DNA of 64,000 nucleotides, from assembly GCF_019375555.1 (NCBI RefSeq), contig NZ_JAHXDN010000005.1, positions 62,001-126,000 of the forward strand. The letters run 5' to 3'. This document shows positions 2,582-41,793 of this stretch, piece by piece; within the stretch, counting starts at the first letter, position 1; every line of letters begins with the position of its first letter. The notes under the pieces were generated by a model. That model was not told the DNA's origin, did no database searches, and saw nothing but the letters and a program-made list of their open reading frames with translations. The DNA comes from Roseobacter insulae (GTDB lineage: Bacteria > Pseudomonadota > Alphaproteobacteria > Rhodobacterales > Rhodobacteraceae). The translations under genes and the position numbers were made by a program.

Positions 2582-3157
2582 TTAATGTTGCGGGATTTGT
2601 TGCGGGATTAATTCCAACCTGATCTTGGATTTTAGGTCCGCTATTCCCCCTGAATTGTCAATCAGCACATCGGCACATTCCGGGCCTAACGCTTCCGACG
2701 CATGGCTGATAGAGGTCCCGGGCGCGTCGCGGCGTTCAATGTATACGATCAGACCGCCAAGACGGCGGATCGCTTCGATCTCATTCGGAAAACGGACGTC
2801 CTCAACAACAGCAGAGGACCCGGCGGTGAGGATCGAGCGGGCGCGCGCTTCCCAGATCGAAACCCAAAGCCCGGGCGTGATCAGGTCGCGGCCCCATTCG
2901 GTGCCAAGGGTAATCATCGCTTGCCGGGGTGACTTCCCGCCAAGGATAGCGTCGGGGGTCTCTTTTAGATCGCCTTCGATCCGCCGGGTGATCTCGGCCG
3001 AACAAAGCCCGGCCGAGGCGTAGAGCGCCGTCAACATGGATTTGAGACCGGCGGCAAAGCGGGTCCGGGTGAAACCCTCGGCGGCGATGATCTCGGCCGC
3101 GGTTGACTTCCCTGCCCCCGCACGACCGACAAGACCGATCAAGCGCGGGGCCATCAC
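2582..3157 (-). CDS. Deoxynucleoside monophosphate kinase
   Basis: 191 residues. It opens with a textbook P-loop (GRAGAGKST, residues 11-19), followed by the LID/NMP-binding pattern of T4 gp1-type dNMP kinases, including TLGTEWGRDLI near residue 83 and VVEDVRFPNEI near 117. Such enzymes phosphorylate dNMPs, often released from host DNA, for phage DNA synthesis. ATG overlaps the stop of the phosphoesterase gene (ATGA). It is the last gene of the leftward late operon, and its C-terminal codons run into the tandem GTTGCGGGATT repeat, so the last eight residues may be functionally neutral. Together with the MazG-like and HD hydrolases it forms a nucleotide-pool set. Confidence 0.85.
   Translation of the reverse strand: MMAPRLIGLVGRAGAGKSTAAEIIAAEGFTRTRFAAGLKSMLTALYASAGLCSAEITRRIEGDLKETPDAILGGKSPRQAMITLGTEWGRDLITPGLWVSIWEARARSILTAGSSAVVEDVRFPNEIEAIRRLGGLIVYIERRDAPGTSISHASEALGPECADVLIDNSGGIADLKSKIRLELIPQQIPQH
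2587..2609 (+). repeat. Tandem pair of GTTGCGGGATT, left prophage end
   Basis: Copies at 2587-2597 and 2599-2609, 12 bp start to start, about 70 bases inside attL. They overlap the last codons of the dNMP kinase gene, whose C-terminus IPQQIPQH is the minus-strand translation of the repeat. The matching pair at the other end (41772-41793) suggests an integrase arm site or terminal operator. Confidence 0.8.
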
Positions 3158-4317
3158 TGCAAAACCTCCCCATTAACGACACCGACGATCTTCCGACCGA
3201 TCTCACCGCGGGTTTCGTTGAACTCGATCGCGATCATGGACCGGCCCGAGCCGGAATGCCCCGCGCCAACATGCCAAGCGTCACCCGGGATAATGGTTTG
3301 CAGGCACTCGATCGGGACGCCCATTTCCTCGCCAATCATCGCATTGTGCAAATGACCGTGATAGAAGCGGTGGACCTTTGCGGCCGCGTAATCTTGCGGG
3401 CGGCGCTGGATCATCACTCCGGGCATTTTGGCGGGCTTACAGGTGTGTCCGTGCGTCGCGCCGATCTGGACGATCCCACGGCGATAGAACCACCAAAGCC
3501 CGGGGTCTAGATCAAACTCGACGCGATCCTCGGCGTCAAAGAGAAGCGCCAACGCCTCGGCGAGGGCGACGGCCGTTTCTTCGTCATGGTTGCCGGGCAG
3601 TAGCCGGACGGTGACCTTCGGGAAACGCGCCAAGAGCAGGCGGATTGCCCATGCAAGGACCCGGATCACGGTTCGCCGGACCTTGGCGAACCGACCGTCC
3701 ACGTCGAGACGGTTCCCGCTGCGCTTCGTCGTCCCCGACTCGTCGTCCGAGTGCAGGAGATCGCCGAGGCCGAGCAAAATCGCTTCGTCGGCGTCAGGCG
3801 TTTGAGCAACCAAACGCGAAAAGGTGTCCATAACCAGACGCTCGGCGATTTTGAGGTCGAAAGACTCGCCGGTTTCCTCGGCCCAAGACAGCATCCCAAA
3901 GTGCAGGTCAGGCCACGGGAACAAGTGAAAGGACCCCTTGCCGTCGGCCGAGGTCTCAGGCGCAGGGACGGGCGGGATCGAGCCGACCAGGTCCTCGGCC
4001 ACATCGCGGATCACTTGGGCGAAATCCTCGGGGGTAAATCCTTCCTCGCGAGTCTTTGTCCAAATGGCCCGCCGTTCCATTTCACCCGTGACCGGGTTCA
4101 ACGTGTGCAGGGTAGAGACGCCTTTGACAACCTGACCGGCCGGGATTGCGGCGGGTGTTGAGCCGTCAAATCCGCGTTGTGCGATCCGGGCAAGGCGTCG
4201 GTAAAGTGCCGAGGTCGAGATCCCGAGCGCGCGCGCCGCGCCGGGGGTGTCGCCCGGGTGCGCTGCGACGACGTTTGCCGTGGTCTTCAATTCATCATCG
4301 GTCAACGGTGCGGCCAT
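3154..4317 (-). CDS. Metallophosphoesterase with N-terminal HTH
   Basis: 387 residues. Residues about 10-45 form a helix-turn-helix like resolvase/Fis-type domains (ARALGISTSALYRRL). The rest is a calcineurin-like phosphoesterase with its metal ligands in order: DLH (137-139), GDLLHSDD (185-192), GNHDE (242-246), THGH (about 290) and GHLH (about 317). Substrate unknown; phage members may act on DNA ends, nucleotides or phosphoproteins. It starts three bases after the stop of the small membrane-protein gene and overlaps the kinase gene. A DNA-binding N-terminus on a phosphoesterase suggests action at DNA (inference). Confidence 0.85.
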   Translation of the reverse strand: MAAPLTDDELKTTANVVAAHPGDTPGAARALGISTSALYRRLARIAQRGFDGSTPAAIPAGQVVKGVSTLHTLNPVTGEMERRAIWTKTREEGFTPEDFAQVIRDVAEDLVGSIPPVPAPETSADGKGSFHLFPWPDLHFGMLSWAEETGESFDLKIAERLVMDTFSRLVAQTPDADEAILLGLGDLLHSDDESGTTKRSGNRLDVDGRFAKVRRTVIRVLAWAIRLLLARFPKVTVRLLPGNHDEETAVALAEALALLFDAEDRVEFDLDPGLWWFYRRGIVQIGATHGHTCKPAKMPGVMIQRRPQDYAAAKVHRFYHGHLHNAMIGEEMGVPIECLQTIIPGDAWHVGAGHSGSGRSMIAIEFNETRGEIGRKIVGVVNGEVLQ

Positions 4318-4320
4318 AAG

Positions 4321-4620
4321 TCAGGACCCTTTCGTGAGGTAGTAAACAGCGACGCCCGAGATAATCGGGGTCGCCAGAGTTGCGGCGAACCAGAAAACCC
4401 GCTCAGCGACGCGGATTGACGTCTTGTTGCTTTGCGTGGTGGCCTCAAGCGCCGTGAGCCGGGCCGTCAGATTGACAACGGCCGAGGTGTTCGAGGACTG
4501 GTCGCGAAAGAGCGTCGCGGTCCGTTCCTCGACCCGAGCCAGCCGCACAACCGCCTCGGAGATCGCGTCCAGCTTACGCTCGACGCGGCCGCGCCATTCG
4601 CTATCGTCAACGGGTTTCAT
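4321..4620 (-). CDS. Small coiled-coil membrane protein, candidate holin or lysis accessory
   Basis: 99 residues. The N-terminal 60 are charged and heptad-like (RKLDAISEAVVRLARVEER), and one hydrophobic segment lies near residues 74-94, with a short basic tail. The layout resembles XhlA-type haemolysin/holin accessory proteins. Its start overlaps the end of the endolysin gene by 14 bases, which places it in the lysis cassette. No second membrane protein is adjacent, so whether it alone forms the membrane lesion is uncertain. Confidence 0.65.
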   Translation of the reverse strand: MKPVDDSEWRGRVERKLDAISEAVVRLARVEERTATLFRDQSSNTSAVVNLTARLTALEATTQSNKTSIRVAERVFWFAATLATPIISGVAVYYLTKGS

Positions 4621-5281
4621 TCGTGCGACCCCCGGACAAAGCGGCGACGATCCGTTCCCACGCGGTCGAGGGGCGGCGGTGAGGGGCCACGGGGGCGACC
4701 GTCACGGTGCCGTGCGGGATGACGTCCTCGATCGCCGATTCCTTCATCGTCGCGGCCTCACCGCCAGCGACCAGCGCAAAGTCCATCGTCCGGCGTGTCC
4801 AGCCCCGACCGAAGGTGACAAAGATCGCAAGCGACGTGTAGTGCAACAGTTGCCACGTCAGAAACTCACGCATGATCGCGAGAGGGTCAGCGTTCCACTT
4901 GTCCGAAACGGCGGCAAGCGTGCGAGGACCGATTGCACCGTCACGCTTTACGCCCGCGGCGCGTTGCAGAAATTTCGCGGCGCGGCCGGGGCCTTGGTTC
5001 ACGGTCGAGTTAAAGACCAGCATCGCGAGAGGCCCGGGCAAGAGATCACCCGAGATCGCGTCCCAGAAATGGACGCGGTACAGACGGCGGGCCTCGGACT
5101 TGGTCAGGTCGTGCAGGTCCCGGGCGTCAACGCGGCCGTCCATATTGACGTCGATCGCCTTCGCGACCAGCGTTTTCAAGGTCCAACCCCAACGGGTCAG
5201 GCCGCCGGGATCGTCCTTGTGGTCAGACCAGCCACCCTCCCAAATTGCGACGGTGTCCATTGCGGACTCGAAGTAATCCAT
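4607..5281 (-). CDS. Endolysin, glycoside hydrolase 108 family N-acetylmuramidase
   Basis: 224 residues. The GH108 signature EGGWSDHKDDPGGLTRWG (from E15) contains the catalytic glutamate. A peptidoglycan-binding-type segment follows (FNSTVNQGPGRAAKFLQRAAGVKRDGAIGPRTL, about 90-122). It cleaves the glycan backbone of murein at the end of infection. No signal peptide is present, so release needs a holin. Unusually, residues 44-55 (DVNMDGRVDARD) form a complete EF-hand/dockerin-like calcium loop inside the catalytic domain. The C-terminal 60 residues include a hydrophobic stretch and a basic tail. Confidence 0.9.
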   Translation of the reverse strand: MDYFESAMDTVAIWEGGWSDHKDDPGGLTRWGWTLKTLVAKAIDVNMDGRVDARDLHDLTKSEARRLYRVHFWDAISGDLLPGPLAMLVFNSTVNQGPGRAAKFLQRAAGVKRDGAIGPRTLAAVSDKWNADPLAIMREFLTWQLLHYTSLAIFVTFGRGWTRRTMDFALVAGGEAATMKESAIEDVIPHGTVTVAPVAPHRRPSTAWERIVAALSGGRTNETR

Positions 5282-5308
5282 ATGCGTTTTCCTTTTGAGT
5301 TGAGGCGA

Positions 5309-5770
5309 TCAGGCCAAGCCGAAGCGGGCGAGGATCGAAGGTGTTTCCGTGGGGCTTTCCAGCCATTGCGCAGCGAAAAGGCACTCGATCCGGGCGAAGC
5401 GTTCGGCCTCAGTCTGGATTTCGGTTTCGTTGTCGGACGGGTCGAGCGATCCCGTCAGATTTGCGAGGACGGAGTCGGCGAGGATCACGGCGCGAATATG
5501 ATCGGCGAGATCAGCCAGATCGAGGCGGTCGGTTTCCGGTGCCTTGACCCAAAGAACCGCCCGGATCGTCCCGGAAATCAAGCGGGCCGTTGTGTTGAGG
5601 CCCGCCGGTTCTGCGTTTTCATGCTCGACCCGGATCGCGAAAGCCGGGACGGTCTCATTCGGGACCGGGCGCGGGTCGTAAGAGCGACCCACGACGAGCG
5701 GGAATGCCGCGACGATCGCGGCGCGGGCGGCGTCCTCAAGTGCCGCTTGTGTTGTCGGTTGCCATCCCAT
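5309..5770 (-). CDS. Putative tail-terminator-like protein (gpU-like)
   Basis: 153 residues, alpha/beta composition, no membrane segment. The pattern (N-terminal helix, PAFAIRVEHENAE strand, DLADHIRAVI helix, C-terminal IECLFAAQWLE strand) fits the small tail-terminator/minor tail U fold; this is a shape match, not a firm family assignment. It starts on the stop of the DUF2793 gene (TGATG-like overlap), so it belongs to the tail operon, although a terminator gene normally lies upstream of the tube gene. Confidence 0.5.
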   Translation of the reverse strand: MGWQPTTQAALEDAARAAIVAAFPLVVGRSYDPRPVPNETVPAFAIRVEHENAEPAGLNTTARLISGTIRAVLWVKAPETDRLDLADLADHIRAVILADSVLANLTGSLDPSDNETEIQTEAERFARIECLFAAQWLESPTETPSILARFGLA

Positions 5771-6477: not shown

Positions 6478-6809
6478 TACTTGACCCCTGATGCACGGGG
6501 CGAGAGCGTCGAGATCGGCCCGGCCCCCGGATCGGCCCCCATCAGCGTAAAGGAGGACACGACGTCAATGCTCACGTTATTGCCATGAACAAAGACCCGC
6601 GGGCGGTAGGTCGAAAACAAGATGTTGACCCGCTCACCGGGCGCGAGCCTGTAAACGTCCCACGTCGGCGCGGCCGGTGTCTGCGGTGGCTCATCAGCAA
6701 AAACCAGAGTGACCGCAGCGATCGAGTCGAGGTTTTTCAGATTGCGGTAATTCTCATCGGGCGGGAAGATGATTTCGAGCCAGTCGGAGTCGAGGGTTTC
6801 AAGTGCCAT
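6477..6809 (-). CDS. Small tail-associated hypothetical protein
   Basis: 110 residues, mostly predicted beta, no cysteines or membrane segments. I do not recognise the family. It lies between the host-specificity protein and the DUF2793 fibre with minimal spacing, so a tail-tip or fibre-connector role is likely from position alone. Confidence 0.6.
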   Translation of the reverse strand: MALETLDSDWLEIIFPPDENYRNLKNLDSIAAVTLVFADEPPQTPAAPTWDVYRLAPGERVNILFSTYRPRVFVHGNNVSIDVVSSFTLMGADPGAGPISTLSPRASGVK

Positions 6810-9800: not shown

Positions 9801-10695
9801 AAAGACCGGCGCGAAGATCGGTGCCAAACCAAGCCGCGATAAGGGAGACGGTCGAGGCGTTCGGCAGGTTCGCCGACAGCATATCCATAGACAGGGACCA
9901 GTCGGAAATACCCGCATGGCGGTTCGCATTCTCGACGTCCTCTTGAAATATGTTGCCCTGACCGTCTCGGCGGACCCGCGGGTTCGGGGTCGGCATGTAA
10001 CCCCATTCGGTCGCGCCCGGGATCACGTTCACGCCCTCGATCAAGTCTTCCATTTCGCCGGAGCGACCGAACACCTCAACCCGGACTTGCGGAATGCGGT
10101 TGCCGAATTGCCCAAGGGGAAGGTCCTCGAAAACGACGTATGCCGTCCCGCGGTATGCCGGGGCGTGACCTTCGATCGCCTCGATCAGGTAGTCGGGGCT
10201 TTGGGTCTCACTCCCGTTGTAGAACCGGACGCGGCCGCTGTTGATCATGGTCGAGAGATCGACAACCTGACTGTCAATCCATATCCGCCCCATGTGCGAC
10301 AACGGCCCCTCGCCGAGCGAGACGGCGAAAGATGCAGAATAGGAATAACTGGTTGTCGAGACGGTCTGGCGTGACTTGCCGGACCCCGAGGATTGCGACG
10401 TGCGGTTTGCCGTCTCTTTCAACCGGGCCGCCCAAATCACCTCACCAGAGACGGCCGTCCGCCCCGCTATGTCCGCCAAAGGTGCGCCCTCTTGCGAGGT
10501 CATGACGTCGAGACTATCGAGCCGCGGACCCTCTTGCGTGATCGTGCCGGTTCCACCCATCAGCTTAGAGTCGACCACCCGGCCGAGGGTCGCGCCGATA
10601 GCTTGCCCGATCGCCGCGGCCGAGACCCCGAGAACAGACCCGCCGATAGCGCCGCCGATTGCAGAACCGGCCGCAGCGAAAAGAAGCGTTGCCAT
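6811..10695 (-). CDS. GTA TIM-barrel-like host-specificity (megatron) protein
   Basis: 1294 residues, the usual size for the RcGTA g15-type baseplate megatron. The N-terminus is glycine/alanine-rich and hydrophobic (AAAGSAIGGAIGGSVLG). A TIM-barrel-like domain lies in the middle: DAFLVGTEMRGLSMAR, ISYAADWSEY, DFVGIDNYLPLSDWR and WFTEIGCPAVEFGG, with candidate acidic catalytic residues. A phage-tail-type C-terminal half follows, with fibronectin-like beta repeats (for example YTFSGLGRRPFSPVHLKAAW). It closes the tail tip and probably degrades or binds surface glycan during adsorption. It directly follows the NlpC/P60 gene, the same order as in RcGTA. Confidence 0.93.
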   Translation of the reverse strand: MATLLFAAAGSAIGGAIGGSVLGVSAAAIGQAIGATLGRVVDSKLMGGTGTITQEGPRLDSLDVMTSQEGAPLADIAGRTAVSGEVIWAARLKETANRTSQSSGSGKSRQTVSTTSYSYSASFAVSLGEGPLSHMGRIWIDSQVVDLSTMINSGRVRFYNGSETQSPDYLIEAIEGHAPAYRGTAYVVFEDLPLGQFGNRIPQVRVEVFGRSGEMEDLIEGVNVIPGATEWGYMPTPNPRVRRDGQGNIFQEDVENANRHAGISDWSLSMDMLSANLPNASTVSLIAAWFGTDLRAGLCSVEPRVELKGKETKTRWRAGGLTRATANVTSTTDEGRPAYGSSPADISLVRAIKNLRARGKRTVLYPFIMMDITDAQALPDPSGAGVQGAYPWRGRIEPRAGQSVAAEVAAFMGTASPANFSISGETVNYSGPAAFGFRRFILHLAHVAKAAGGVDAFLVGTEMRGLSMARHSDGSYPFVDALRTLAAEVSAILPGAKISYAADWSEYHSDRPGSEIRFHLDPLWADPAIDFVGIDNYLPLSDWRGGSSHADFDATNGITTPYNLDYLKGNIEGGEYWDWFYADSAARAAQDRSPIQDLAYGEPWVYRQKAIRDWQQNAHYERDASGIRAATPTAWVPGSKPIWFTEIGCPAVEFGGNQPNVFNSRISSEGGLPYFSTGIRDDFMQRQFIRASLEWWRDNGAGVLDVADVQIWCWDARPWPEFPNNTDTWSDGPDWRLGHWLNGRAGTAPAAEAMRRRLIERHDLVDADFDFSEAYGQGDGYASGAPISFREYIQPFEVSLGLTVREDDGRLIFSNPAYAREVEGITVDDMAQSGTAGAAPFSALRSAIEDTAGTAILRFRDGVRDYQAAAVRDQIEDGPEDGTAEAETPLILDFDRGASAVARILRAASAARETLSFSLPRSARRVRPGMIVPIAFGDEPPRAFEIKKVIEGEALAIEAQSYDRGTHAPGASIYLPAQNKRVFGSQTSILALMDLPLITAGADEADGFIAAHAEPWPGLVVVARSYDENIGFAVSASLAIPATIGETVADLDPGTPWTYTEGPLDVRVFSGSLVSRSEPEILGGANSLAVLHADGWEVVQFRNAELIDGGTYRLSGLLRGQRGTESLSRASLPAFARVVLLDDAIAPAGVSSADVGLPFWYRYGPSDVSTDEHLKSRYTFSGLGRRPFSPVHLKAAWSGGDAVLNWTRRTRTLDGTFPASGQEPPVGEVSESYRVEIGPIGAPLRVETVSAPTFTYTAADQSADGITLPVAVRVSQISDTFGPGPAAALNLKGS

Positions 10696-10698
10696 GTG

Positions 10699-11337
10699 TT
10701 AGACCCTTTCGACGTGAGCGATCGCCGGGGGGATCGCGTCGAGCGCGGCCCCGGGCGTCGGGTAGTGACGGGATCGGGACAAGGGCGTCCCATCCATCAT
10801 GTCTTGAACGGTGTAGAAAGCGCCCTCGGCGTCCTCTTGGACGATCGCCAGAAGGTCGGACGATTTCAGGTTTGGCTTGCCGGTCTCGCACCCTTCGGCG
10901 AGCGGGAAGCGCCAGCGCCCGGCAAGGTGCCACGGCGCGCGGGACTCCACAGTGCCGCGGCGCTCGCAGACGTGAACCACACGAGCGGGGCCGGTCTCGA
11001 TAAGATCATCCCGGGCGACAAGGACGCCCACATGGGCGACAGGTCCACCACCAATTCGGAAGGCGACGACGTCGCCAGCCGCGGGGGCGTCCAGTAGATA
11101 ACCCGGAACAAGATGGCGATTTCCGGCGGCGAGGATCGGCGAGGTGTCAGCCTCGGCCCAATCCTCGACAAAGGGCGGCGGGGTCACCATGACGCCCGAG
11201 GTTTCGGCGAGAATGCCACGGATCAGGCCGACACAGTCAGCGCCTACGCCACGAACGGCCGCGCGGCGATGCCACGGCGTCCCGATCCAAGCGGCGGCAT
11301 GAACGGCGATCACGGCAGGGTTGACGGCGGCGATCAT
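10699..11337 (-). CDS. NlpC/P60-type tail peptidase (GTA g14-like)
   Basis: 212 residues. The NlpC/P60 signature is clear: WIGTPWHRRAAVRGVGADCVG with nucleophile C35, then PVAHVGVLV with H102, and H122 as a likely third polar residue. It should cleave peptide cross-links of peptidoglycan while the tail penetrates. The catalytic domain ends near residue 145. About 65 further residues (DLLAIVQEDAEGAFYTVQDMM) are additional to the short GTA protein and may anchor it in the baseplate. ATG overlaps the hub gene stop. Confidence 0.88.
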   Translation of the reverse strand: MIAAVNPAVIAVHAAAWIGTPWHRRAAVRGVGADCVGLIRGILAETSGVMVTPPPFVEDWAEADTSPILAAGNRHLVPGYLLDAPAAGDVVAFRIGGGPVAHVGVLVARDDLIETGPARVVHVCERRGTVESRAPWHLAGRWRFPLAEGCETGKPNLKSSDLLAIVQEDAEGAFYTVQDMMDGTPLSRSRHYPTPGAALDAIPPAIAHVERV

Positions 11338-12263: not shown

Positions 12264-12274
12264 TGTTGCGGGAT
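12264..12274 (+). repeat. GTTGCGGGATT single copy
   Basis: Exact 11-mer in the short gap between the DUF2460 stop and the terminator upstream of the hub gene, same orientation as all other copies. A site next to a terminator inside an operon is what a stoperator-like element would look like. Confidence 0.75.
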
Positions 12275-12307
12275 TTTGGAAATCTAACCTACAACCGTGC
12301 GGTGAGG

Positions 12308-12952
12308 TTAATCGCCCAGAATGACCTCGATCAGAGAGACGTCCGGGGCCGAGGTGACCCCGTCGCCGTCGGGGCGAAAATAGGTCCACTCAGCAAGGAT
12401 CGAGTCGGCTTCGAACCGCACAGGAACGTCAAACAGAAACCCGACTGTGACGGTCAAGGCGGGGTCAGGCGGAACGTCAAAGGTAACGACACCGCCAGAC
12501 GCCGAGAGGGTCCAGCCGGTCAGGACTTCGACCCCGTTGACAGCAACCCGAAGCGAGGAAGCCCGGGGGAGATAGATCGGCCGGACGTATGGCAGGCCAA
12601 CCCCGTAGGTCTTAGACACTTGGAAATCGGTTTGAGACCCGTTGCCGATCCCGACAACCTGGTCGGTCGGCGACGGGGTTTCCGAGGGCCGACAGGATTT
12701 GTAATCAAGCCAGTCTTGAAAGCGGAACGAATGCCGCCGCCCTTGGGCTTCCTCCCAAAGATCGAGGACGTCGGACATATCGTCGGCCGATCGGATCGCG
12801 AGACCCGCCAACCATGACCGCCGAGCGTGTTTCCAGCGCTGATTGATTTCCTCGCGGCCGCTCGCGAGCGTGACAATTTCGTCGCGCCTTTGGGCGATCG
12901 CTTGGCAACCTTGAGCCACGTTGCGGGGGAAGTCTCGGTCTAAAAGTGCCAT
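12308..12952 (-). CDS. Distal tail protein, DUF2460 (GTA g12-like)
   Basis: 214 residues, family length. Typical features: LLDRDFPRNVAQGCQ at the N-terminus, EEINQRWKHARRSW, a RHSFRFQDWLDYKSC motif, VGIGNGSQTDFQVSKTY and a C-terminal FEADSILAEW strand. It forms the ring that joins the tail tube to the hub. ATG overlaps the tape-measure stop by one base. Confidence 0.9.
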   Translation of the reverse strand: MALLDRDFPRNVAQGCQAIAQRRDEIVTLASGREEINQRWKHARRSWLAGLAIRSADDMSDVLDLWEEAQGRRHSFRFQDWLDYKSCRPSETPSPTDQVVGIGNGSQTDFQVSKTYGVGLPYVRPIYLPRASSLRVAVNGVEVLTGWTLSASGGVVTFDVPPDPALTVTVGFLFDVPVRFEADSILAEWTYFRPDGDGVTSAPDVSLIEVILGD

Positions 12953-20706: not shown

Positions 20707-20919
20707 GGTGGGACTCACATTGTTTGAACAACAGGAGAAAGCACCTTTGCCATGTACCCACCTAGAAACCCGAATCACTTAAGTTTCTCGGCGAATCAGA
20801 TAGTTAAGCTTGCAAAGATGACATCGTCAGTTTTTCAAGGGTTTACGCTGCTGTGGAGATTCGGCACTCTGTTCTTAGAAAAGTCCCCACAATTACATTA
20901 GCCTCTAAGGTGAAACGAG
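20707..20919. promoter_or_regulatory. AT-rich gap between the head operon and the plus-strand moron
   Basis: About 210 bases with no credible gene. It must hold the rightward promoter of the moron genes; several AT-rich hexamers exist, but none is clear enough to name. No GTTGCGGGAT copy is present, which suggests the cassette is controlled differently from the phage genes. Confidence 0.4.
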
Positions 20920-21036
20920 ATGGAACTTAACGACTTCCATATACTCCTTCTGTGCCTAGTCGCACTGTCATTAGTTGCCTTGAACGTCGTCAAAATCCTT
21001 CAGATTTGGAAGGACTGGAAAAAACGTGACGACTAG
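20920..21036 (+). CDS. 38-residue single-span membrane microprotein
   Basis: ATG 20920 with AAGG nine bases upstream, stop TAG 21034. The peptide starts MELNDFHILLLCLVALSLVA, one hydrophobic helix of about 20 residues, and ends with a charged cytoplasmic tail containing KDWKKRDD. Its composition is AT-rich like the two genes downstream. It could be a lysogenic-conversion, superinfection-exclusion or toxin-like peptide; the function is not known. Confidence 0.5.
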   Translation: MELNDFHILLLCLVALSLVALNVVKILQIWKDWKKRDD

Positions 21037-21239
21037 GACAAGGACATTGTTGTGAAAGTCGCAAAACGCCACTGAAAATCCCTGCCAAGCTACTCTGGTC
21101 TTTATTCGAATGAGAGGCGCGCATTGGTGTTTGCTGTGCTTTCGCAGGACGTTCATCTGCCAAGTTGGCGCGAGCTGCAATTGGATTGACTTTGAGTCTT
21201 ACAAACAGTAAGAATAACTTGAATTACAGGAGTCGCGAC

Positions 21240-21533
21240 GTGATACCCAGACTTTCAAAGATCGAATATCAGGTGCTGGATTTGCTCAGATCAGGGGTAG
21301 AGATGTACGGCCTCGAATTGGTCAAAGCATCTAACGGCGCACTGAAACGAGGGACAATTTACGTCACTCTCAACCGCATGGTCGAGAAGGGCTACCTCAC
21401 GAGCCGCGCTGAGGATGAACCCTCAGAACCCGGTTTACCTCGCCGCAGATACCGCGTGAGTGGTCACGGAGCACGGGTATTGAGTGCGACCGATACGGCC
21501 TCGGCGGCTTTCGAGGGAGGCTCCTATGCCTAA
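21240..21533 (+). CDS. PadR-like winged-helix regulator
   Basis: 97 residues from GTG 21240, preceded by AGGAG; the longer frame from 21165 has no ribosome-binding site. The sequence IEYQVLDLLRSGVEMYGLELVKAS ... LKRGTIYVTLNRMVEKGYLTSR ... RRRYRVSGHG is a compact PadR domain with wing. PadR proteins repress a neighbouring membrane or transport gene. The next ATG overlaps its stop region, so the partner is likely a direct functional mate. Confidence 0.75.
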   Translation: MIPRLSKIEYQVLDLLRSGVEMYGLELVKASNGALKRGTIYVTLNRMVEKGYLTSRAEDEPSEPGLPRRRYRVSGHGARVLSATDTASAAFEGGSYA

Positions 21534-22116
21534 GAGGAACATAACCAAAGAGCGGTTCATCGAATTGTTTTACATTTCAAGTTTGGCTTTCTCGAAGGAC
21601 ACCGAAAACACACACGACGTTCTTGGGAGAGCTTGGCAGAAGCTGGAAGATTCGAAGTACCCCACGGTTCCTAGTAGTGTTTTCCTTAGCCACGATGATA
21701 AGGACCATTGGGATCTGGACTTCCTAGTGGAGCGGCTTGTTGCCAGAAATGAGGAACTTCGCGATAGCATTTTGAAGGACTACAGCGACCGCGTCACGGT
21801 CGACCCCGATACAGACCAACTTGTTCTTCGGGAAGATTTCTTGGGCAGTAGCAAACGCTCTAGAATTCACAAGCCCGCTGGCCATTTCGCAAACAACTTG
21901 CTGTCCTCCTTACTTCCAAAGAAGGTGTTTGAGACCCATTTCGCACAACACATTGCCGACATGAGGTTTGAGGCGAACGAGTTAGACGCCGAGGGGCGGC
22001 TGTGGAAACGGCGCTGGCTTGTGGTTTGGTATCACTGCTCGATAGCTTATAGCGCCGTCATGGTACCAATGCTTGCCGCTTTTAAGCGGATCGTCGGGAT
22101 CTGGGGGTCACTCTAG
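21526..22116 (+). CDS. PadR-coupled protein with C-terminal membrane segment
   Basis: 196 residues from ATG 21526, with GGAGG nine bases upstream, overlapping the PadR gene by eight bases. The N-terminal 150 residues are soluble and mixed-charge (FIELFYISSLAFSKDTENTHDVLG, LDFLVERLVARNEELRDS). A hydrophobic C-terminal segment (WYHCSIAYSAVMVPMLAAFKRIVGIW) suggests membrane attachment. No family recognised. Its 3' end overlaps the convergent SSB gene by four bases. With PadR and the 38-residue peptide it forms a plus-strand cassette inserted in the leftward late region. Confidence 0.65.
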   Translation: MPKRNITKERFIELFYISSLAFSKDTENTHDVLGRAWQKLEDSKYPTVPSSVFLSHDDKDHWDLDFLVERLVARNEELRDSILKDYSDRVTVDPDTDQLVLREDFLGSSKRSRIHKPAGHFANNLLSSLLPKKVFETHFAQHIADMRFEANELDAEGRLWKRRWLVVWYHCSIAYSAVMVPMLAAFKRIVGIWGSL

Positions 22117-26376: not shown

Positions 26377-26550
26377 TGCATCCCCCGGAAACAAAACCGC
26401 CCGGCGATCCTCGGGGTGCGGTCGAGGCTCAAGCCGGGCGGTGTATCGAGAAAGGGGCAGGATCGGGAGAGCAAGAGAACCGATCCGCCGCGCAATTCCT
26501 CGACTATGGCAAGGGATATAGCACGGCCGAGCGGGTGTTGCGGGATTTCG
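26377..26550 (-). promoter_or_regulatory. Intergenic region with one GTTGCGGGATT copy and a TTGACG box
   Basis: The repeat (plus strand 26537-26547) lies one base from a minus-strand TTGACG (26549-26554). It looks like a -35 box for the genes downstream (gpZ-like, terminase). No clean -10 is visible at 16-18 bases, so the promoter call is tentative. Confidence 0.45.
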
Positions 26551-32617: not shown

Positions 32618-33502
32618 TCAGGCCGCATATCCGCGGTCGCGGGCCAGATCGAGCGCGATCAGGAAGATCATTTTGCAGGACCGCGCGGGCCAGCCGAGCG
32701 CCTTTTCGATCGCCTCGAACCCCAGACCGTCCACAATCAGAGCCTTGAAAATCGCGGTCAGCGTCTCCCCGATGTTGAGGTCGGCGATCGCGTCCAGAAA
32801 GCGGGCAGGATCGGTCTGGGCTGTCTCGATCATGGACCAGACAAGCGCGATATGCTCGGCCTCAAATCTGGCGGCCGACATGCGGCTGGCCCGTTCCATC
32901 TGGGCAATCAGCGCCGAACCTAACGCCGGGCCGTACCTCTTTCGACCCTCGGAGGCGATCCGATGGACGGCGGGCCGGACAGGCGGGGGCGTCTTGATCT
33001 CGCCGAGGGCGTCGGGGGCGACGCCGGTCAATTCCAGCCGGGCAACCCGGACGGTCCCCTGCCCCGGCTTGCAGCGCGCCACGCCGGACAAGACCAGACC
33101 AAGAGCAGCAGGGCGGGAGATCGTCGCGACTTGGTCGCCATTTTGCAGGACGGGCGATCGGGCGGTCTCGATCCCGACCAAAATCGAGACCGTAGACTTC
33201 CGGCCGATCGAGGCGGTCGCGAGCGCGGCCGAAACTTCGTAAGCAGACGTTCCGAGGTAGTAGAGCAGCGACTCAAGGTCGAAGCCGCGGGGGGCGTCGG
33301 TCTTGGGGGCGGCATACTCGCGGGAAATGTCGTCCCAGATCTGAGACCAAATCGGGCAATCCCGCGCATCCTCGATTGAGCGGATACGGCGCAAGACGGT
33401 TGAGGCGTGAACACTTTCGGCGCGAGCGATCTCGCGGATCGGCTCAGCCCCTACGGTGTGGCGAAGATATGCGGCGGCTTGGTCGGGAGTGATCGCGGGC
33501 AT
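32618..33502 (-). CDS. HTH-DUF6456-type regulator
   Basis: 294 residues. Residues about 17-42 (GAEPIREIARAESVHASTVLRRIRSI) form an HTH followed by the DARDCP turn. The C-terminal 130 residues end with GLGFEAIEKALGWPARSCKMIFLIALDLARDRGY, the DUF6456 signature seen in host HTH regulators of Rhodobacterales. A phage copy could mimic or replace that host regulator, or act in phage replication or transcription control. It lies mid-operon. Confidence 0.75.
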   Translation of the reverse strand: MPAITPDQAAAYLRHTVGAEPIREIARAESVHASTVLRRIRSIEDARDCPIWSQIWDDISREYAAPKTDAPRGFDLESLLYYLGTSAYEVSAALATASIGRKSTVSILVGIETARSPVLQNGDQVATISRPAALGLVLSGVARCKPGQGTVRVARLELTGVAPDALGEIKTPPPVRPAVHRIASEGRKRYGPALGSALIAQMERASRMSAARFEAEHIALVWSMIETAQTDPARFLDAIADLNIGETLTAIFKALIVDGLGFEAIEKALGWPARSCKMIFLIALDLARDRGYAA

Positions 33503-33787: not shown

Positions 33788-34081
33788 TCAGGACCCCCGA
33801 TCAGCTTTGGCAAGCAGTGCGGCAAAAGGGGCGAACTCGCCCGCAGCCCATTTGCACCCGGCCCGGGTCACGCGGTCGGTGCCGTGATCCAGAAAACCGC
33901 GTTCAATTGCCGCCGCGCGAAAAAGCATTAGGTTTGCGCCATCCAGACCCGCCACACGGGCCAGCGGGCGGTCGCTGACTTCGGCAGTCGCGGCGGCGGC
34001 AAGAAAGTGCAGCAGCTTCGGGTTAGCGAAAGAGGTCAATGCCTCGGCGCGGGTCGGGTTTAGGTGAAATGCAGCGTTCAT
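33788..34081 (-). CDS. Hypothetical early protein, possible winged helix
   Basis: 97 residues. SDRPLARVAGLDGANLMLFRAAAIERGFLDHGTDRVTRAGCKW has the helix-helix-wing order of small wHTH proteins. ATG overlaps the methyltransferase stop (ATGA). Perhaps a DNA-binding accessory of the early operon. Confidence 0.6.
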   Translation of the reverse strand: MNAAFHLNPTRAEALTSFANPKLLHFLAAAATAEVSDRPLARVAGLDGANLMLFRAAAIERGFLDHGTDRVTRAGCKWAAGEFAPFAALLAKADRGS

Positions 34082-35628
34082 TTTGTGACGTCTCCAAAGA
34101 GAGAGGGTTGCTTATCGGTCGCGCTTTCGGCGGCCGACTTGGCTCGGGCCGCGGCGGCCTCGGCAATTCGGGTCGGATCAAATTCAGGAAGGCGTGACCG
34201 GATATGCGCGGCATATTCGGCGTCGCGCTCGATCAGGTGGCAGCGGCGACCCTCAGTCGCGGCCGCCCAAGCGGTCGAGCCGGACCCGCCGAACGGGTCG
34301 AGGACAAGGCCGCCGCGCGCCGTCGTCATGCGAACAAGCCAGCGCATCAGGCTTTGAGGTTTGACGGTCGGGTGCTTTGCCCCGGCACGGTCGGCCTTGC
34401 TGGCCTTGGATGAATAGAAGAACCGACCGAAAGAGCCGGTTTCGTCAAAGGGGAACCGCTTCAAAACTTCGGTCGAACCGTCATGCGTCACGTTCGCAGG
34501 CCAGCGATCGCCGTCCGGTATCCGGGCGGCGTCGATATTCAATCCGCCGGTCCCGGTCGCAATCGTCTGGCGGGCGACAGACCCGGCGGCAAGCGGCTTA
34601 CGGGCGAGAACGATCGGCTCAATCGCGGGCTTAAGGCAGGTCCCCCACCCTTCCCATTGCAATGCCGCCTCGGTTGCGCGGGTTATCTTGCGGGTGCGAT
34701 CACCGCCCTTAAACATGCCGCTTTCGACATGCTCGGCCCATGATCCGTTATCAGTCCGGGAATAGGTTTCCTCGCCGACGACCTCGCGCCGACCCCACGC
34801 GTCGCCGGGCTTCCCTTTGCGATCATTTAGGCGATCGACCAGGTCCTCGATTTCGGCGGGGACCGACATAGCAAAAAGACTATTGAGCCGGTTCCATTGG
34901 TCAGGCTTCGGGATAGCGGCTTGCGCACCTCTTGTCGTCCAGTGACCGGCCATGCCGTTCGTCCCGAACACCTCGTCAATCTTAGCATTCGTCAGACCGG
35001 CACGATCGCGAGCCTCGGCGATCCATGCAGTGACCTTGATGATTTCGGCGTGATCGTCGCGCAGCATGTCGATACCGGCCGCAACGTCGTGAGATTTTGG
35101 AAAGCCAGTCCCGTAAAGCCATCCCATCAGCGGGCCGTCAGCCCCGGCGAGGGCGCGGTGCAAGCCTTTGGCTTGATCGGCGGTGAGGGTATCGAGGAAG
35201 TCGGACCAAGCGTCGGCCGTGTCGTAGAGATCAAAGATCGAGTCTCGGATTTCCCAACCGGCCGCCTCGATCGCGGTCGCCATGTGGTGAAAGGTGCGGG
35301 AGTGGTTGAAGGCGACCAGATGTGCGCCGGGCTTCGCGACCCGCAGCATTGCGGCCCACGTCTCAGGACGAAAGGCAATATCGCCGCCGTCCCATTCCTT
35401 GCCCATGAAGCCCTTAGAGGATCGCTGAAAGAGACCGTCGGTCCCCTCTTTCGCCTCGGCCGCATTCGGACCGCCGAACCGCTTTACGATCGACGCTAGA
35501 TGATAAGGCGGATCGGTTACGATCGCGTCGAATGAGTTTTCGGGAAGGGCAGCGAGAACGGCGAGGCAATCGCCTTCGGATAACGTGACGTTTTCGCCTT
35601 TGGGTTGATCTGCGTCATGGTCAGACAT
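34078..35628 (-). CDS. Orphan N6-adenine DNA methyltransferase (beta-class order)
   Basis: 516 residues. DPPY at 39-42 (catalytic motif IV) near the N-terminus and DPFGGSGS (motif I, SAM binding) at 444-451 near the C-terminus, with SKASKADRAGAKHPTVKP before it, the usual beta-class arrangement. A roughly 300-residue central region carries target recognition (for example EVFGTNGMAGHWTTRGAQ). No restriction gene lies nearby, so it probably protects or regulates phage DNA. It is the first gene of the early operon, behind a promoter with an embedded GTTGCGGGATT. Confidence 0.92.
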   Translation of the reverse strand: MSDHDADQPKGENVTLSEGDCLAVLAALPENSFDAIVTDPPYHLASIVKRFGGPNAAEAKEGTDGLFQRSSKGFMGKEWDGGDIAFRPETWAAMLRVAKPGAHLVAFNHSRTFHHMATAIEAAGWEIRDSIFDLYDTADAWSDFLDTLTADQAKGLHRALAGADGPLMGWLYGTGFPKSHDVAAGIDMLRDDHAEIIKVTAWIAEARDRAGLTNAKIDEVFGTNGMAGHWTTRGAQAAIPKPDQWNRLNSLFAMSVPAEIEDLVDRLNDRKGKPGDAWGRREVVGEETYSRTDNGSWAEHVESGMFKGGDRTRKITRATEAALQWEGWGTCLKPAIEPIVLARKPLAAGSVARQTIATGTGGLNIDAARIPDGDRWPANVTHDGSTEVLKRFPFDETGSFGRFFYSSKASKADRAGAKHPTVKPQSLMRWLVRMTTARGGLVLDPFGGSGSTAWAAATEGRRCHLIERDAEYAAHIRSRLPEFDPTRIAEAAAARAKSAAESATDKQPSLFGDVTK

Positions 35629-35665: not shown

Positions 35666-35693
35666 CCAATATGTTGCGGGATTACAGTTTCAA
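35666..35693 (-). promoter_or_regulatory. Early leftward promoter with embedded operator
   Basis: Minus strand: TTGAAA (35693-35688), 16-base spacer, TATTGG (35671-35666). The spacer contains the complement of GTTGCGGGATT (35673-35683), so binding there would block RNA polymerase. About 40 bases downstream the methyltransferase gene starts at 35628. Confidence 0.55.
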
Positions 35694-35843
35694 ACCGTGC
35701 CTGATTTGGATGTGTTCTTCCAGAATGACGATCTGATCGGCTTTAAGAAAGGAAAAGGTGGGACAAAACGGCTAAAATTATCCCTTACAGCCAACTCTTT
35801 CCGGTTTTCGGCCCTGGTTTCCCAAAGGTTCGATTACTTTTAT

Positions 35844-35854
35844 GTTGCGGGATT
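35844..35854 (+). repeat. GTTGCGGGATT single copy upstream of the Fis-HTH gene
   Basis: Exact copy, the only one placed directly upstream of a plus-strand gene. Its TTGCGG could also serve as a rightward -35 with TAGAGT 17 bases later; this is weak. Confidence 0.7.
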
Positions 35855-35925: not shown

Positions 35926-36162
35926 ATGGCGGAGACTGAGAGCAGCCAACCCACGGTTGAGGCAAAAACGATGAAGATCGACATGGCAGGCCGGACACTT
36001 GCAGACGTGATAAAATCCGTCGAGGCAAACTATCTCGGCCACGTCCTGACCGAAGCCGGGGGCAACAAGCGCAAGGCGGCCGATCTCGCCGGTCTCGCGC
36101 CGGACACGTTCCGCAAGAAACTGTCCCTCTACTCGATCCGGGCGGTCTTCAGTGTCGGTTGA
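35926..36162 (+). CDS. Small Fis-type HTH regulator, candidate phage switch protein
   Basis: 78 residues from ATG 35926 (MAETESSQPTVEAKT); an upstream ATG at 35842 has no ribosome-binding site and overlaps the repeat. The C-terminal 45 residues (VEANYLGHVLTEAGGNKRKAADLAGLAPDTFRKKL) are a HTH_8/Fis DNA-binding domain. It is the only DNA-binding gene at the divergent control region. It may be the repressor or antirepressor, but it lacks the dimerisation domain of a CI-type repressor. Confidence 0.75.
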   Translation: MAETESSQPTVEAKTMKIDMAGRTLADVIKSVEANYLGHVLTEAGGNKRKAADLAGLAPDTFRKKLSLYSIRAVFSVG

Positions 36163-36328
36163 CAAAGAGCAGCTAGAAAAGGCGCTCACGGTGGCCGCTG
36201 CACTGGTGTCAGAGTACGGCGACGCCTACCTGCCCGCATTTTTGCGGATTGAGGCAGAACTGGAAAAACGCCAAGCCCAAACTTGCGCGATTGACCGGGC
36301 GAGAGTGATCGCCCGGCGCATGGGCTAG
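36152..36328 (+). CDS. 58-residue hypothetical protein coupled to the Fis-HTH gene
   Basis: GTG 36152, overlapping the HTH gene by 11 bases. Mostly helical (LEKALTVAAALVSEYGDAYLP, then LRIEAELEKR), no family recognised. Its close coupling suggests a partner of the regulator, for example an anti-regulator. It converges on yedK. Confidence 0.55.
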   Translation: MSVDKEQLEKALTVAAALVSEYGDAYLPAFLRIEAELEKRQAQTCAIDRARVIARRMG

Positions 36329-39087: not shown

Positions 39088-39304
39088 TGAAACAGGCCTC
39101 TCGATGTCGAATAGAGCGCCAACCTGCTATGCGGCTCCTCTAGTCTTGTATTCTCAGAACTGGCAAGTAGCAAAGAAATATCGTGGCTTGTAACGCCGCA
39201 AGCTACTGTTCGAGAGAGTTGCAGCTTTGGGACTTTGGGTTCGAAGTAGACACCAAGGTCCCAACTTTGCAAAGTCGGCTTTCTGCGCACTGTGTTCATC
39301 AGAG
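39088..39304. promoter_or_regulatory. Promoter region of the HEPN-like gene
   Basis: 217 bases, AT-rich, no gene. The HEPN-like gene is transcribed leftward from here. The region also separates it from the integrase-nuclease operon. Confidence 0.4.
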
Positions 39305-39667
39305 TCAGCTTTTGCACCAGTCTTTACGCTCACCTGCCCATGGGACGGCTAACCCTTCCTCGACCAGGACGTGGCCAACACGCCGACCGTCGGGCAACCG
39401 AAGGTGGATCAAGGGTCGGTTGAAGTTGTCAAACCGACCCAAAAACTCGATTTCGACACCCGCCGAGACCAGTTCTTCCATGCGGCGCTTTGATTGCACC
39501 CCAAGCAGTTTTTCCGGCAGGCACTCTGCACGCCAATCCGGCGCGGGGGCGTCGATCCCCTCGATCCTCATGCGACCGCGCTCGCGGTTCTTGACCGTGT
39601 CGCCATCAACCACAACGAGGGGGTCCGAGACGTCAAAGAGCGCCACCAGAAGGAGCGCCGGGATCAA
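39305..39667 (-). CDS. Staphylococcal nuclease-like protein coupled to integrase
   Basis: 120 residues, ATG overlapping the integrase stop (39664-39667). Short hydrophobic N-terminus (MIPALLLVALFD) may be a signal peptide. SNase core: VVVDGDTVK (D21, D23), MRIEGIDAPA (R34), AECLPE (E48) and FNRPLIHL (R84) match the calcium and catalytic residues. It would cut DNA, possibly in the periplasm to block incoming DNA, or have a role in integration. Small for the family but complete. Confidence 0.8.
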   Translation of the reverse strand: MIPALLLVALFDVSDPLVVVDGDTVKNRERGRMRIEGIDAPAPDWRAECLPEKLLGVQSKRRMEELVSAGVEIEFLGRFDNFNRPLIHLRLPDGRRVGHVLVEEGLAVPWAGERKDWCKS

Positions 39668-41010
39668 GTTTCGGCGTCCTCGGGTCGGGCAGGATAGGCG
39701 ACCTTCTCCAAGACCTCCAAACGAGCAGGAAGTGCGCCGCCGTCCCCGTACTTCGGCCGCGCGTACTTGTGGCCCAAGATGTCAGCCCGAATGCGGTCGT
39801 CAGCGCCGACACGCTGCAAAGCATCTTCCATCGCGTGGCGCAGACTGTAAGGGGTGTGTTTGTCAGTCTCACGAAGACCATGGACCCGAAGGTGCTTTGT
39901 CACGGCCGCCGACCAGCCGTTTGCCTTGTGGGCATATCGTCCGATGCCACCGCGGGCGACGATCCGGCGGGCGGCGGCGAGAGATACGCCGAGCAAGGGA
40001 ATTTCGCGTTCGGTGTGGGAGACTTTCAATTCGCGGCCGTGGGCGGCGACCCGAAAAAACGGTATCGGCGCGTCGGTTTCGAAATCAGTCAGCGGCGCGT
40101 CCGTGATCTCGGAAGGTCGCAAGCCGGTGTTGATCATCATCAGGAAAACGTCCGCCGCTTCATCATTGAGCGCGTCAAAAGCGCCCGGAGCGAGTAGCTT
40201 GCCGCTGATCCACTCGGGAGAAAAGGGCGGGATTCGACCTTCCTTTCCGGGGGCAAGGCGTAGACCCTTGAACGGGTTCGCAAGAGGGACGTCGGTCAGC
40301 TTGGACCACGTCTCAAGGATCGTCGCGAGGATGCCGATATGCTTGTTTGCCGCGCCTGCGGTGACCTCGCCCGCCTCAACCCGCTTTGCCCAATGCTCGC
40401 GATAGGCAAGCGCATGAGCGCGGGTGATAGAACCAACCGGCAAAGGGTCCTCTGAAAACCTCGGGTCCTCAAAAATGACCTTGTTGAAGACCTCAACCGC
40501 ATGACGGCGCAGGCTTTCCCACCGCTTCGCTTGCGCCTCGGATTTCTCGCGGCGATCGACGGACGTCAAGGATTTGTATTCCTCGAAGACCTCCATAAGC
40601 GTTGGCGTTGCCGCGGGAACCGTCCCCATGATCGCCGAGGCGATTTCAGGCGGCGCGACGGTTTCCCCCTCGCCGAGGGCCAGAAGACGACGGACCAGGT
40701 CCTGCAAGTCACCCGCGGCGACGTCGTCAATCGGCTTATAGGTGAAGCCATAGGTCGAGGCGATCTTGCGGGCATTCTGATAGTGTTTGTGGGCCGACGC
40801 GCCATCCCCCGCCGCGAGCGCTTCCCATTGCGCCAGATAGGCCGCCTCGACTTGTTTCGCCTTGGCGCGGGCTTCGTCTCTACTATCGGTAAAGAGGGCT
40901 TGGCGGACTTGTGAGACGGGCTTTCCATCCTTTCCGCAAACGATACCCTTAAACCTCTTAGGAACCCGCATCACGAAATAGTAGCGGCCCCGATCATTGG
41001 TGATCCCCAC
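39664..41010 (-). CDS. int: Tyrosine integrase of the prophage
   Basis: 448 residues. N-terminal arm-binding part of the DUF6538 type (YYFVMRVPKRFKGIV), SAM-like core domain, then catalytic domain: TGLRPSE, YSLRHAMED (R391, H392), ILGHK and nucleophile Y421 in KYGDGG. It integrates at tRNA-Phe. It lies about 870 bases from the right attachment core, with two small membrane/exported protein genes between. Confidence 0.93.
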   Translation of the reverse strand: MGITNDRGRYYFVMRVPKRFKGIVCGKDGKPVSQVRQALFTDSRDEARAKAKQVEAAYLAQWEALAAGDGASAHKHYQNARKIASTYGFTYKPIDDVAAGDLQDLVRRLLALGEGETVAPPEIASAIMGTVPAATPTLMEVFEEYKSLTSVDRREKSEAQAKRWESLRRHAVEVFNKVIFEDPRFSEDPLPVGSITRAHALAYREHWAKRVEAGEVTAGAANKHIGILATILETWSKLTDVPLANPFKGLRLAPGKEGRIPPFSPEWISGKLLAPGAFDALNDEAADVFLMMINTGLRPSEITDAPLTDFETDAPIPFFRVAAHGRELKVSHTEREIPLLGVSLAAARRIVARGGIGRYAHKANGWSAAVTKHLRVHGLRETDKHTPYSLRHAMEDALQRVGADDRIRADILGHKYARPKYGDGGALPARLEVLEKVAYPARPEDAET

Positions 41011-41013
41011 AGA

Positions 41014-41412
41014 TCAGCCTCCCGAGCAATCGCCTGCCCAGACCTTTGAGCCGGTCGGAGCGATTGTGAGGCGACAAGAGAACGCAGGGGCAGCCGTCTC
41101 GACAGCATCAGACGCCGCAAGGAAAGAGGCCGGGGCGGCAGTGAGGGAAAGACGGGCGGCCTCGGCGTCGGCCGGGGCGTAAAGGTAGGCGGCCGTCAAT
41201 TGTCCCTCAGTCCAAGGGGCACGGTCCAAAATCGCGCGGGCGTCGCCGGGATCATCCGGAATCGGCGCAGTGTAGATCAACAGGCGGTTGCGTTCCGGCG
41301 TCTTGAAGTAGGCGACCCGGTCGGCCGTGTTGCGGGTTAGCGTCAACCCTGCCACAATCAAAAAAATCAAGAAGAAAGAAACAGAAAACATGAAAATCAA
41401 TACCTTGCGCAT
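41014..41412 (-). CDS. Exported or membrane-anchored hypothetical protein
   Basis: 132 residues. N-terminal hydrophobic segment (VLIFMFSVSFFLIFLIVAGLTL), then a soluble part with two cysteines (SCRLTIAP and GDCSGG) that may form a disulfide in the periplasm. No family recognised. It sits behind a promoter with an embedded GTTGCGGG element, so it may be expressed or blocked in the lysogen; a superinfection-exclusion role is possible. Confidence 0.55.
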   Translation of the reverse strand: MRKVLIFMFSVSFFLIFLIVAGLTLTRNTADRVAYFKTPERNRLLIYTAPIPDDPGDARAILDRAPWTEGQLTAAYLYAPADAEAARLSLTAAPASFLAASDAVETAAPAFSCRLTIAPTGSKVWAGDCSGG

Positions 41413-41444
41413 ACAGTAGCCCCCGCGGCGACAAAAGATTTCCC

Positions 41445-41473
41445 TGTCTACGTTGCGGGTTTTTAAAAATCAA
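41445..41473 (-). promoter_or_regulatory. Promoter with embedded GTTGCGGG variant
   Basis: Minus strand: TTGATT (41473-41468), 17-base spacer, TAGACA (41450-41445). The spacer contains the complement of GTTGCGGGTTT (41452-41462). The gene at 41412 begins 33 bases downstream. Confidence 0.5.
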
Positions 41474-41482
41474 CTCGCGAGA

Positions 41483-41746
41483 TCAGGGGATAAGTAGTTT
41501 GGCAAGAACCCACCAGTTTAACGCGAATAGTGCATAACCGATCAGCGCAGGCAAATAGGTGTCCCAAATCGGGCGAGATTTGTGGGGTCGGCGATCCTTT
41601 ACGAGTCGATCGCAAGCGGCAAGGCTGGCGTCAAAGTCTGGCGGGGGTGCGTCGCTTACGCACCTAAACAAAATCCGGTCGCAAACCTTTGAGACCGCGG
41701 CGTCGGTCGCCTCTTTAGTGATGTTTTCGAAGGATAGTCGAGTCAT
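41483..41746 (-). CDS. Small tail-anchored membrane protein
   Basis: 87 residues. Soluble N-terminus (ITKEATDAAVSKVCDRILFRC) and a C-terminal membrane helix (YLPALIGYALFALNWWVLAKLLIP). Placed near attR, after the tandem GTTGCGGGAT pair. Function unknown. Confidence 0.55.
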   Translation of the reverse strand: MTRLSFENITKEATDAAVSKVCDRILFRCVSDAPPPDFDASLAACDRLVKDRRPHKSRPIWDTYLPALIGYALFALNWWVLAKLLIP

Positions 41747-41771
41747 TTCAGCTTACCCGGTTTTCAATTTT

Positions 41772-41793
41772 GTTGCGGGATTTGTTGCGGGAT
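41772..41793 (+). repeat. Tandem pair of GTTGCGGGAT, right prophage end
   Basis: Copies at 41772-41781 and 41784-41793, spacing 12, about 90 bases from the attR core. On the minus strand TTGACA (41811-41806) lies just upstream, so the pair also covers a likely promoter of the small membrane gene. An inverted ATGTTGCG lies at 41796-41803, mirroring the left end. Confidence 0.8.

Follow-up and report, generated by a model that had tools for sequence, protein, structure and literature searches.

The stretch of DNA analysed here (the window; 64,000 nucleotides of Roseobacter insulae, contig NZ_JAHXDN010000005.1) contains a prophage at about 2498-41906, bounded on the left by an 18-bp repeat and on the right by a tRNA-Phe gene (its 3' end). 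It encodes a tyrosine integrase close to its right end, a leftward early operon, a divergent gene for a Fis-like protein with a helix-turn-helix (HTH) of the HTH_8 type and a late region, and a short motif, GTTGCGGGAT, is dispersed through it. The sites were found to be of two kinds, tandem pairs near the prophage ends and single copies at operon starts or in an intra-operon gap (Table 1). In our study the pairs are recognized as the probable arm sites of the integrase, and the single copies are considered as possible operators to which the same protein may bind.

An exact search located 8 exact copies of GTTGCGGGAT in the window, every one on the plus strand, as an initial annotation of this DNA had stated (its position 12264 becomes 12265 for the 10-mer); the absence of the motif from the host part of the window, also claimed there, was borne out with no exact copy found. 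Shuffled versions of the window held 0.28 copies on average and 2 at most. The scan of the whole host genome which that annotation had proposed (4,882,487 bases) gave 30 copies, 8 in the 39.4-kb prophage against 22 spread over the other 4.84 Mb on both strands, which rules out an equal density in the host. For the 12-mer TGTTGCGGGATT, 7 exact copies are present in the prophage, against 0.005-0.012 expected from Markov models of order 1-4. The variant reported at 41452 was confirmed, and another, GTTGCGGGTTA at 41329, had been overlooked; as the latter lies within the coding sequence (CDS) 41014-41412, and as a possible 5' extension of the Fis-like open reading frame (ORF) would run over the copy at 35844, the statement that all copies except the left pair are intergenic is nearly right. 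Eighteen of the 22 copies outside the prophage are inside ORFs of at least 187 amino acids (aa). Three others (C10:123392, 123412 and 124470; longest covering ORFs 62, 62 and 16 aa) sit within a 1.25-kb stretch bounded by a 12-bp repeat of a tRNA-Gly 3' end, and the last (L030) is covered solely by a 63-aa ORF; labels of the G, C and L series are our handles for genomes, contigs and loci. A chance origin of the motif is rejected by the shuffles, by the Markov expectations and by the invariant runs of the switch alignment given below. A signal at the RNA level or on one strand is likewise rejected, the sites being found at candidate promoters of both directions.

The tandem pairs lie inside both prophage ends and, on the circular phage, come to stand 70 and 86 bp from the core, with short direct repeats flanking the attP core on either side. 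Directly adjoining the right pair is a partial inverted copy (41791-41802, minus strand). The tyrosine integrase encoded beside the pairs carries an N-terminal domain; it was assigned to PHROG 1 (integrase), with a DUF6538 match above the cut-off and a Phage_integrase match below it. The catalytic-type residues R298, K329, R391, H414 and Y421 (roles assigned by eye) are conserved in all four members of its clade, and the His of HxxR is Tyr across the integrase family. Two structure models were of poor (pLDDT 54) and moderate (pLDDT 67.7, pTM 0.37) quality, the second showing the N-terminal domain as three strands and one helix. The model is similar to Tn1549 Int (3e-07, but low TM scores) and, weakly (E 0.068), to the DNA-bound Phi3T protein SroF, which no paper found by our literature search names. 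Comparison of the modelled N-terminal domain with solved arm domains gave no match, and a PDB sequence search returned nothing useful.

Seventeen loci with integrases of at least 43% identity, the window included, were compared. The identity is 87% in Roseobacter sp. H9, 76% in Allgaiera indica, 63% in G402 (judged from equal score and sites to be the same prophage as G623), 58% in G399, 57% in phage vB_DshS-R4C (R4C), 57-59% in Pseudophaeobacter/Phaeobacter loci (G395, G396 and G398 looked at; L035 resembles G396), 52% in G326 and G643, 49% in G075 and G020, 48% in G460 and 45% in G400; it is 54% over residues 1-179 in G064 and 46% over residues 1-306 in a second, split H9 locus (C57). Of the 17, 16 have tandem 12-bp units on the att side of int, the exception being G400, whose record ends at int; G396, G623 and the second H9 locus each have one degenerate unit in the pair. 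The units are of CGGG, AGGG or ATG types and do not follow the core, since the target tRNAs of these elements differ (Phe, Leu, Gln, Arg and Ser). Within integrase columns 1-65, residue 6 alone separates the arm classes, being D in 9 of 9 CGGG/AGGG loci and N, N, V and V in the four ATG loci, so that the site sequence varies with the N-terminal domain; beyond column 65, 15 further columns also separate these classes, and the ATG class represents only two independent lineages because three of its four rows are 88-90% alike. Three loci added later to this comparison (G643, G460 and the second H9 locus) have D at residue 6 and CGG in their arms. Among distant integrases (33-40% identity), 5 of the 12 loci fetched from the matches listed (G254, G354, G188, G107 and G388) have 12-bp repeats in tandem no more than about 150 bp from int, as detected with exact 8-mers only, and the tandem-arm rule therefore weakens with integrase distance. 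Tandem GTTGCGGGNNNNGTTGCGGG matches occur in 29 of 394 genomes; out of the 28 other than the window's, the match region was fetched for six (G075, G255, G266, G166, G250 and G108). A pattern scan of viral contigs gave at least 80 loci, one of which (L104) was followed. These comparisons argue strongly that the phage's tyrosine integrase has TGTTGCGGGATT as its arm-type binding unit, which we consider very probable.

Conservation of the sites in related phages had been named as a check, and the first four single copies do recur at the same places in three relatives. The positions 12264, 26536, 35672 and 35843 match in the window, H9 and G623, and three of them in Allgaiera, whose contig lacks the fourth. 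In H9, Allgaiera and G623 the singles are oriented like their arms; Allgaiera has one additional weak copy at 12719, inside an ORF. An alignment of the switch from three phages has 125 invariant columns out of 289 ungapped ones, and its two longest invariant runs (14 and 13 nt; the next is 6) are the two motif copies. The late region alignment is more conserved (117/181), the motif being one of four runs of at least 11 there. The four phages with singles form one integrase clade (support 99/98). Within it the candidate early, late and Fis-like promoters are each overlaid by a single unit, another lies in the intra-operon gap, and in the window and H9 the candidate int promoter is covered as well. 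A scan allowing one mismatch found no copy outside the arms in R4C, G075, G395 (to 435000) and G400; two-mismatch copies are scattered through these four and G399. For G326, and for 4.9 kb of G020, the element's own unit is confined to the arms.

The promoters themselves are candidates. Boxes on both sides of the sites at 35672 and 41451, described by the initial annotation, are visible by eye but find no support in the consensus scan; a canonical sigma-70 scan gave 3 promoter-like sites against 2.9 in shuffles, and none in two further scans, so the boxes are taken from inspection and alignments. The late extended -10 has the counterparts TGGTATAT in Allgaiera and TGTATAG in G402. The copy said to lie beside an intra-operon terminator does stand before such a hairpin, at 12264.

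Table 1. Motif sites, genes and related features of the prophage (window coordinates) and of related elements (coordinates of their own records)
Feature	Position	Strand	Remarks
attL core	2498..2515		18 bp identical to tRNA-Phe 3' end
Left arm pair	2586..2609	+	TGTTGCGGGATT twice (2586/2598); overlaps kinase gene 3' end
Single	12264..12275	+	just upstream of intra-operon terminator hairpin (12260-12233, -)
Hairpin	26397..26441	-	between candidate late promoter and first late gene; conserved; by eye, not listed by scan
Single	26536..26547	+	over -35 position of candidate late promoter; extended -10 TGCTATAT at 26523-26516, by eye
DUF6456 (GafA/GafZ-like) regulator	32618..33502	-	rival binder at promoters
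DNA methylase	34078..35628	-	first gene of leftward early operon; name from R4C homologue annotation
Single	35672..35683	+	switch; spacer of candidate leftward early promoter TTGAAA-16-TATTGG, by eye
Single	35843..35854	+	divergent switch; -35 position of candidate rightward promoter (TTGCGG-16-TAGAGT) of Fis-like gene, by eye
Fis-like HTH_8 protein	35926..36162	+	78 aa; rival binder
58-aa protein	36152..36328	+	conserved beside several related integrases
Tyrosine integrase	39664..41010	-	448 aa, N-terminal DUF6538; proposed binder
Variant TGTTGCGGGTTA	41328..41339	+	inside CDS 41014-41412; also present in H9
Candidate int-operon promoter	41473-41468 (TTGATT), 41450-41445 (TAGACA)	leftward	by eye; absent from consensus scan listing
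Single variant CGTTGCGGGTTT	41451..41462	+	17-bp spacer of candidate leftward int-operon promoter, by eye
Right arm pair	41771..41794	+	TGTTGCGGGATT and TGTTGCGGGATC (41771/41783)
attR core	41881..41898		3' end of tRNA-Phe (41882-41956, -)
H9 copies	54962, 55085, 57590, 57761, 67148, 80432		arms 52116/52128, 90099/90111
Allgaiera copies	1297, 10228, 10380		arms 13256/13268; contig ends before tail gap
G623 switch singles	168398, 168549		TGTTGCGGGAAT
G623 late single	178552		TGTTGCGTGATT
G623 tail-gap single	192413		TGTTGCGGGAGT
G623 arms	165903/165926		unit TGTTGCGGGAA
TGTTGCGGGATT-type arms			window, H9, Allgaiera, R4C, G399, G075, G643
TGTTGCGG arm unit			G064
TGTTGAGGGATT arm unit			G326
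TGTTGATGnATT-type arms			G395, G396, G398, G020
ATGCGGGATT arm unit			G460, second H9 locus

The distribution of CI-type (HTH_3) repressor genes was found to run opposite to that of the singles. Such a gene was found in 5 of 5 elements without dispersed singles versus 0 of 4 phages with them, being at or near the switch of R4C, G399, G400 and G405 and inside the elements of G395 and G075; the integrases of G405 and G395 are alike, so these two count as one, and the comparison leaves out G396, G326, G020, G643 and G460. No HTH_3 was found in G402. RcCronus gave neither an HTH_3 nor an integrase match.

We infer that the integrase recognizes the single copies also, a proposal for which the odds appear even, and an equal chance is given to its arm-binding domain repressing the lytic operons, with the arm pairs used for recombination and the singles as operators. 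The tandem pairs at both attP arms would serve integration and excision. The N-terminal arm domain would bind the singles and repress or roadblock lytic transcription in the lysogen, acting on early and late initiation and blocking transcription at 12264, and the integrase may be kept at a low level by its own operator through negative autoregulation at 41451. In the complete form of this reading, to which we assign a probability of roughly 0.4, an active integrase doubles as the lysogeny repressor, silences the phage operons through the very 12-bp unit that serves integration, and has replaced the CI-type repressor of related phages, making integration and immunity one function. The initial annotation had offered two ideas, of which sites serving both control and recombination is best supported, by the att arms and the conserved singles, and a protein for silencing only is less so; among the binders it suggested, the integrase is favoured over the Fis-HTH and DUF6456-type proteins.

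A number of observations weigh against this reading. In G623 the far (second) arm was looked for and not found, two copies of opposite orientation lie inside an ORF (166461/166472), and each of the four singles has one mismatch. The site at the candidate int promoter (41451) is kept in H9 but was found in neither Allgaiera nor G623. Arm and single units do not clearly correspond in their endings, the H9 arm unit having GAAT and the H9 singles GATT, and G399 has a one-mismatch single at 7266 inside an 87-aa ORF. As the four phages form one clade, the singles together with the missing CI gene count as one evolutionary event and not four. The HTH_3 match of R4C is borderline (22.8 and 20.3 bits against a cut-off of 23); in the window, H9 and Allgaiera (a partial prophage) HTH_3 is absent from the matches listed, which end at weak ones, and G398, with a shortened integrase, has no singles and no HTH_3 among the matches listed on its contig. 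A repressor of another fold may exist in the phages with singles. Integrases usually bind arm sites together with the core, and lone sites may be weak.

Comparison with known systems places the window case best between integrase autoregulation and a recombinase-fold repressor. MrpR of SPbeta has a tyrosine-recombinase fold, has lost recombinase function and acts as master repressor via the repeated prophage element SPBRE (PMC10516654); a conserved element dispersed through one prophage is likewise present here. MrpR, however, lacks several catalytic residues, whereas the window integrase appears intact, and it is described as having core-binding and catalytic domains only, with excision by a serine recombinase, whereas the element here is the integrase arm unit. 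In KplE1, arm sites overlap the int promoter and IntS represses it (PMC2951348), to which the position of 41451 between a candidate -35 and -10 (by eye, not listed by the consensus scan) may be comparable; that regulation concerns int, whereas here single units are also early, late and intra-operon, the tail-gap single being about 29 kb from the arms beside int. KplE1-type autoregulation could be the older state and the singles at other operons its extension, because in relatives outside the clade, such as G075 and G020, the arms start only 55-62 bp upstream of int. R4C (MK882925; PMC6836515) shares the arm unit, a related integrase and a similar gene order, but differs in having an HTH-type repressor gene, gp034, and no dispersed singles. 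A literature search of titles and abstract openings, with incomplete journal coverage, gave nothing on integrase arm units as phage-wide operators among the papers listed. If the reading is true, one protein would couple recombination to immunity and place excision and induction under joint control, and the phage would represent a step between self-repressing integrases and dead recombinases turned repressors such as MrpR. Arm-like motifs away from att may then mark regulons, and the idea is directly testable with small proteins and short DNA.

The main rival explanation is that the Fis-like HTH_8 switch protein is a dual excision factor and lysogeny regulator which binds both arms and singles, in the manner of Apl of phage 186 and Cox-type recombination directionality factors, where a single protein works both at att and at the lytic/lysogenic switch (PMC7498355). 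The gene of the Fis-like protein is kept in all four phages with singles and diverges from the early operon, each of the two candidate promoters having its own motif copy, a CI-type gene standing in between in R4C and G399. Apl binds att and switch, but its switch sites are seven adjacent repeats and binding in vitro needed at least three of them (PMC7498355), whereas the copies here are single and dispersed, the two at the switch being 171 bp apart, and the arm pairs flank the core on both sides. A profile of the Fis-like protein found no copy inside five arm-bearing elements (G075, G326, G020, G643 and G460), yet detected the divergent G400 copy; elsewhere in those five genomes it matched long host proteins only (open frames 413-523 aa). 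The profile was used because tblastn at 1e-4 had missed the Fis-like genes of G395 and G400. Moreover, the HTH does not follow the motif, reading TYQTF.RKL in R4C and G399 and AYQTFTRKL in G395 although the arms differ, and Fis-type dimers favour symmetric sites. Such a role of the Fis-like protein is considered unlikely.

In a proposal of still lower standing, the singles would act as promoter elements recognized by an activator of the phage, for instance the DUF6456 (GafA/GafZ-like) protein, and their likeness to the arms would be secondary. The motif occupies the -35 position at the late and Fis-like promoters (by eye), R4C has CGCAAC at a like place of its late leader (by eye), the DUF6456 protein shows a weak, sub-cut-off match to sigma region 4, and a C-terminal piece of GafA is reported to bind a fragment with a predicted -35 element. 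At 35672 and 41451, on the other hand, the motif is in the spacer and not at -35, the identity of 12 bases in 12 to the arm unit is left unexplained, and neither R4C nor G399, both of which encode DUF6456 relatives (30% and 23%), has dispersed singles outside ORFs. This explanation is considered improbable.

The initial annotation had seen a parallel with the stoperators of mycobacteriophage L5, and the functional likeness stands: as in cluster A mycobacteriophages (PMC9283540), the sites are asymmetric, of fixed orientation and located at promoters (here by eye), in short gaps and within operons. True L5-type stoperators, at which a separate, unrecognised asymmetric repressor would stop transcription and integration would simply borrow that protein or site, are however considered quite improbable. 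In the cited account the L5 type has a dedicated repressor and more than 20 sites, not described as attachment arms, whereas about ten sites are present here and the same motif is the integrase arm unit. The unit occurs as arms alone in relatives without dispersed singles, and the matches listed for the window prophage include no HTH_3 repressor, though no search with an L5-repressor model was made. Binding of the motif by a host protein has nothing specific in its favour and is very improbable, given only 22 copies in 4.84 Mb, of which 18 are in long ORFs and three of the other four in the tRNA-Gly relic.

Some further features of the prophage were also observed. The late-leader hairpin is a possible antitermination target, and the late hairpin region (26397-26547) together with the DUF6456 protein has a layout like lambda Q or Caulobacter GafZ antitermination. 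A second element like GGTTnGAWW adjoins the singles at 12264, 26536, 35672 and 35843 on either side and is partly kept in relatives. A low-GC insert at 20780-22116 carries a PadR-like ORF (likeness by eye) and a second ORF on the plus strand; no homologues were found in the relatives compared. On the host side of attL, window 2420-2443 holds GCTTGGGGGATGCGTTGGGGGATT, a 12-bp tandem resembling the arm unit, which a previous element at tRNA-Phe may have left behind. Between arm and core there is a terminator-like hairpin (41819-41853, minus strand), seen by eye also in H9, R4C and G399.

Further observations were made outside the window. The tRNA-Gly relic of 1.25 kb in the host genome (C10 123240-124570; L008, G000), with its three motif copies, is perhaps a second, deleted element of the same integrase family. 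Units of the TGTTGCGGGATT and GGTTGCGGGAAT types, in tandem close to tRNA-Gln and tRNA-Leu (L212 of G255, 10722-10757; L213 of G266, 10635-10670), are possible relics, no integrase match at 1e-40 being found in these two genomes. In G400 the integrase (L282 37-1305) has Gly at the expected first catalytic Arg (NTGAGPNE) and may for this reason be inactive. A 19-kb element of G326 (C1 2285531-2304481) is bounded by TGTTGAGGGATT arm pairs and encodes the 52% integrase, with almost no genes like those of the window phage.

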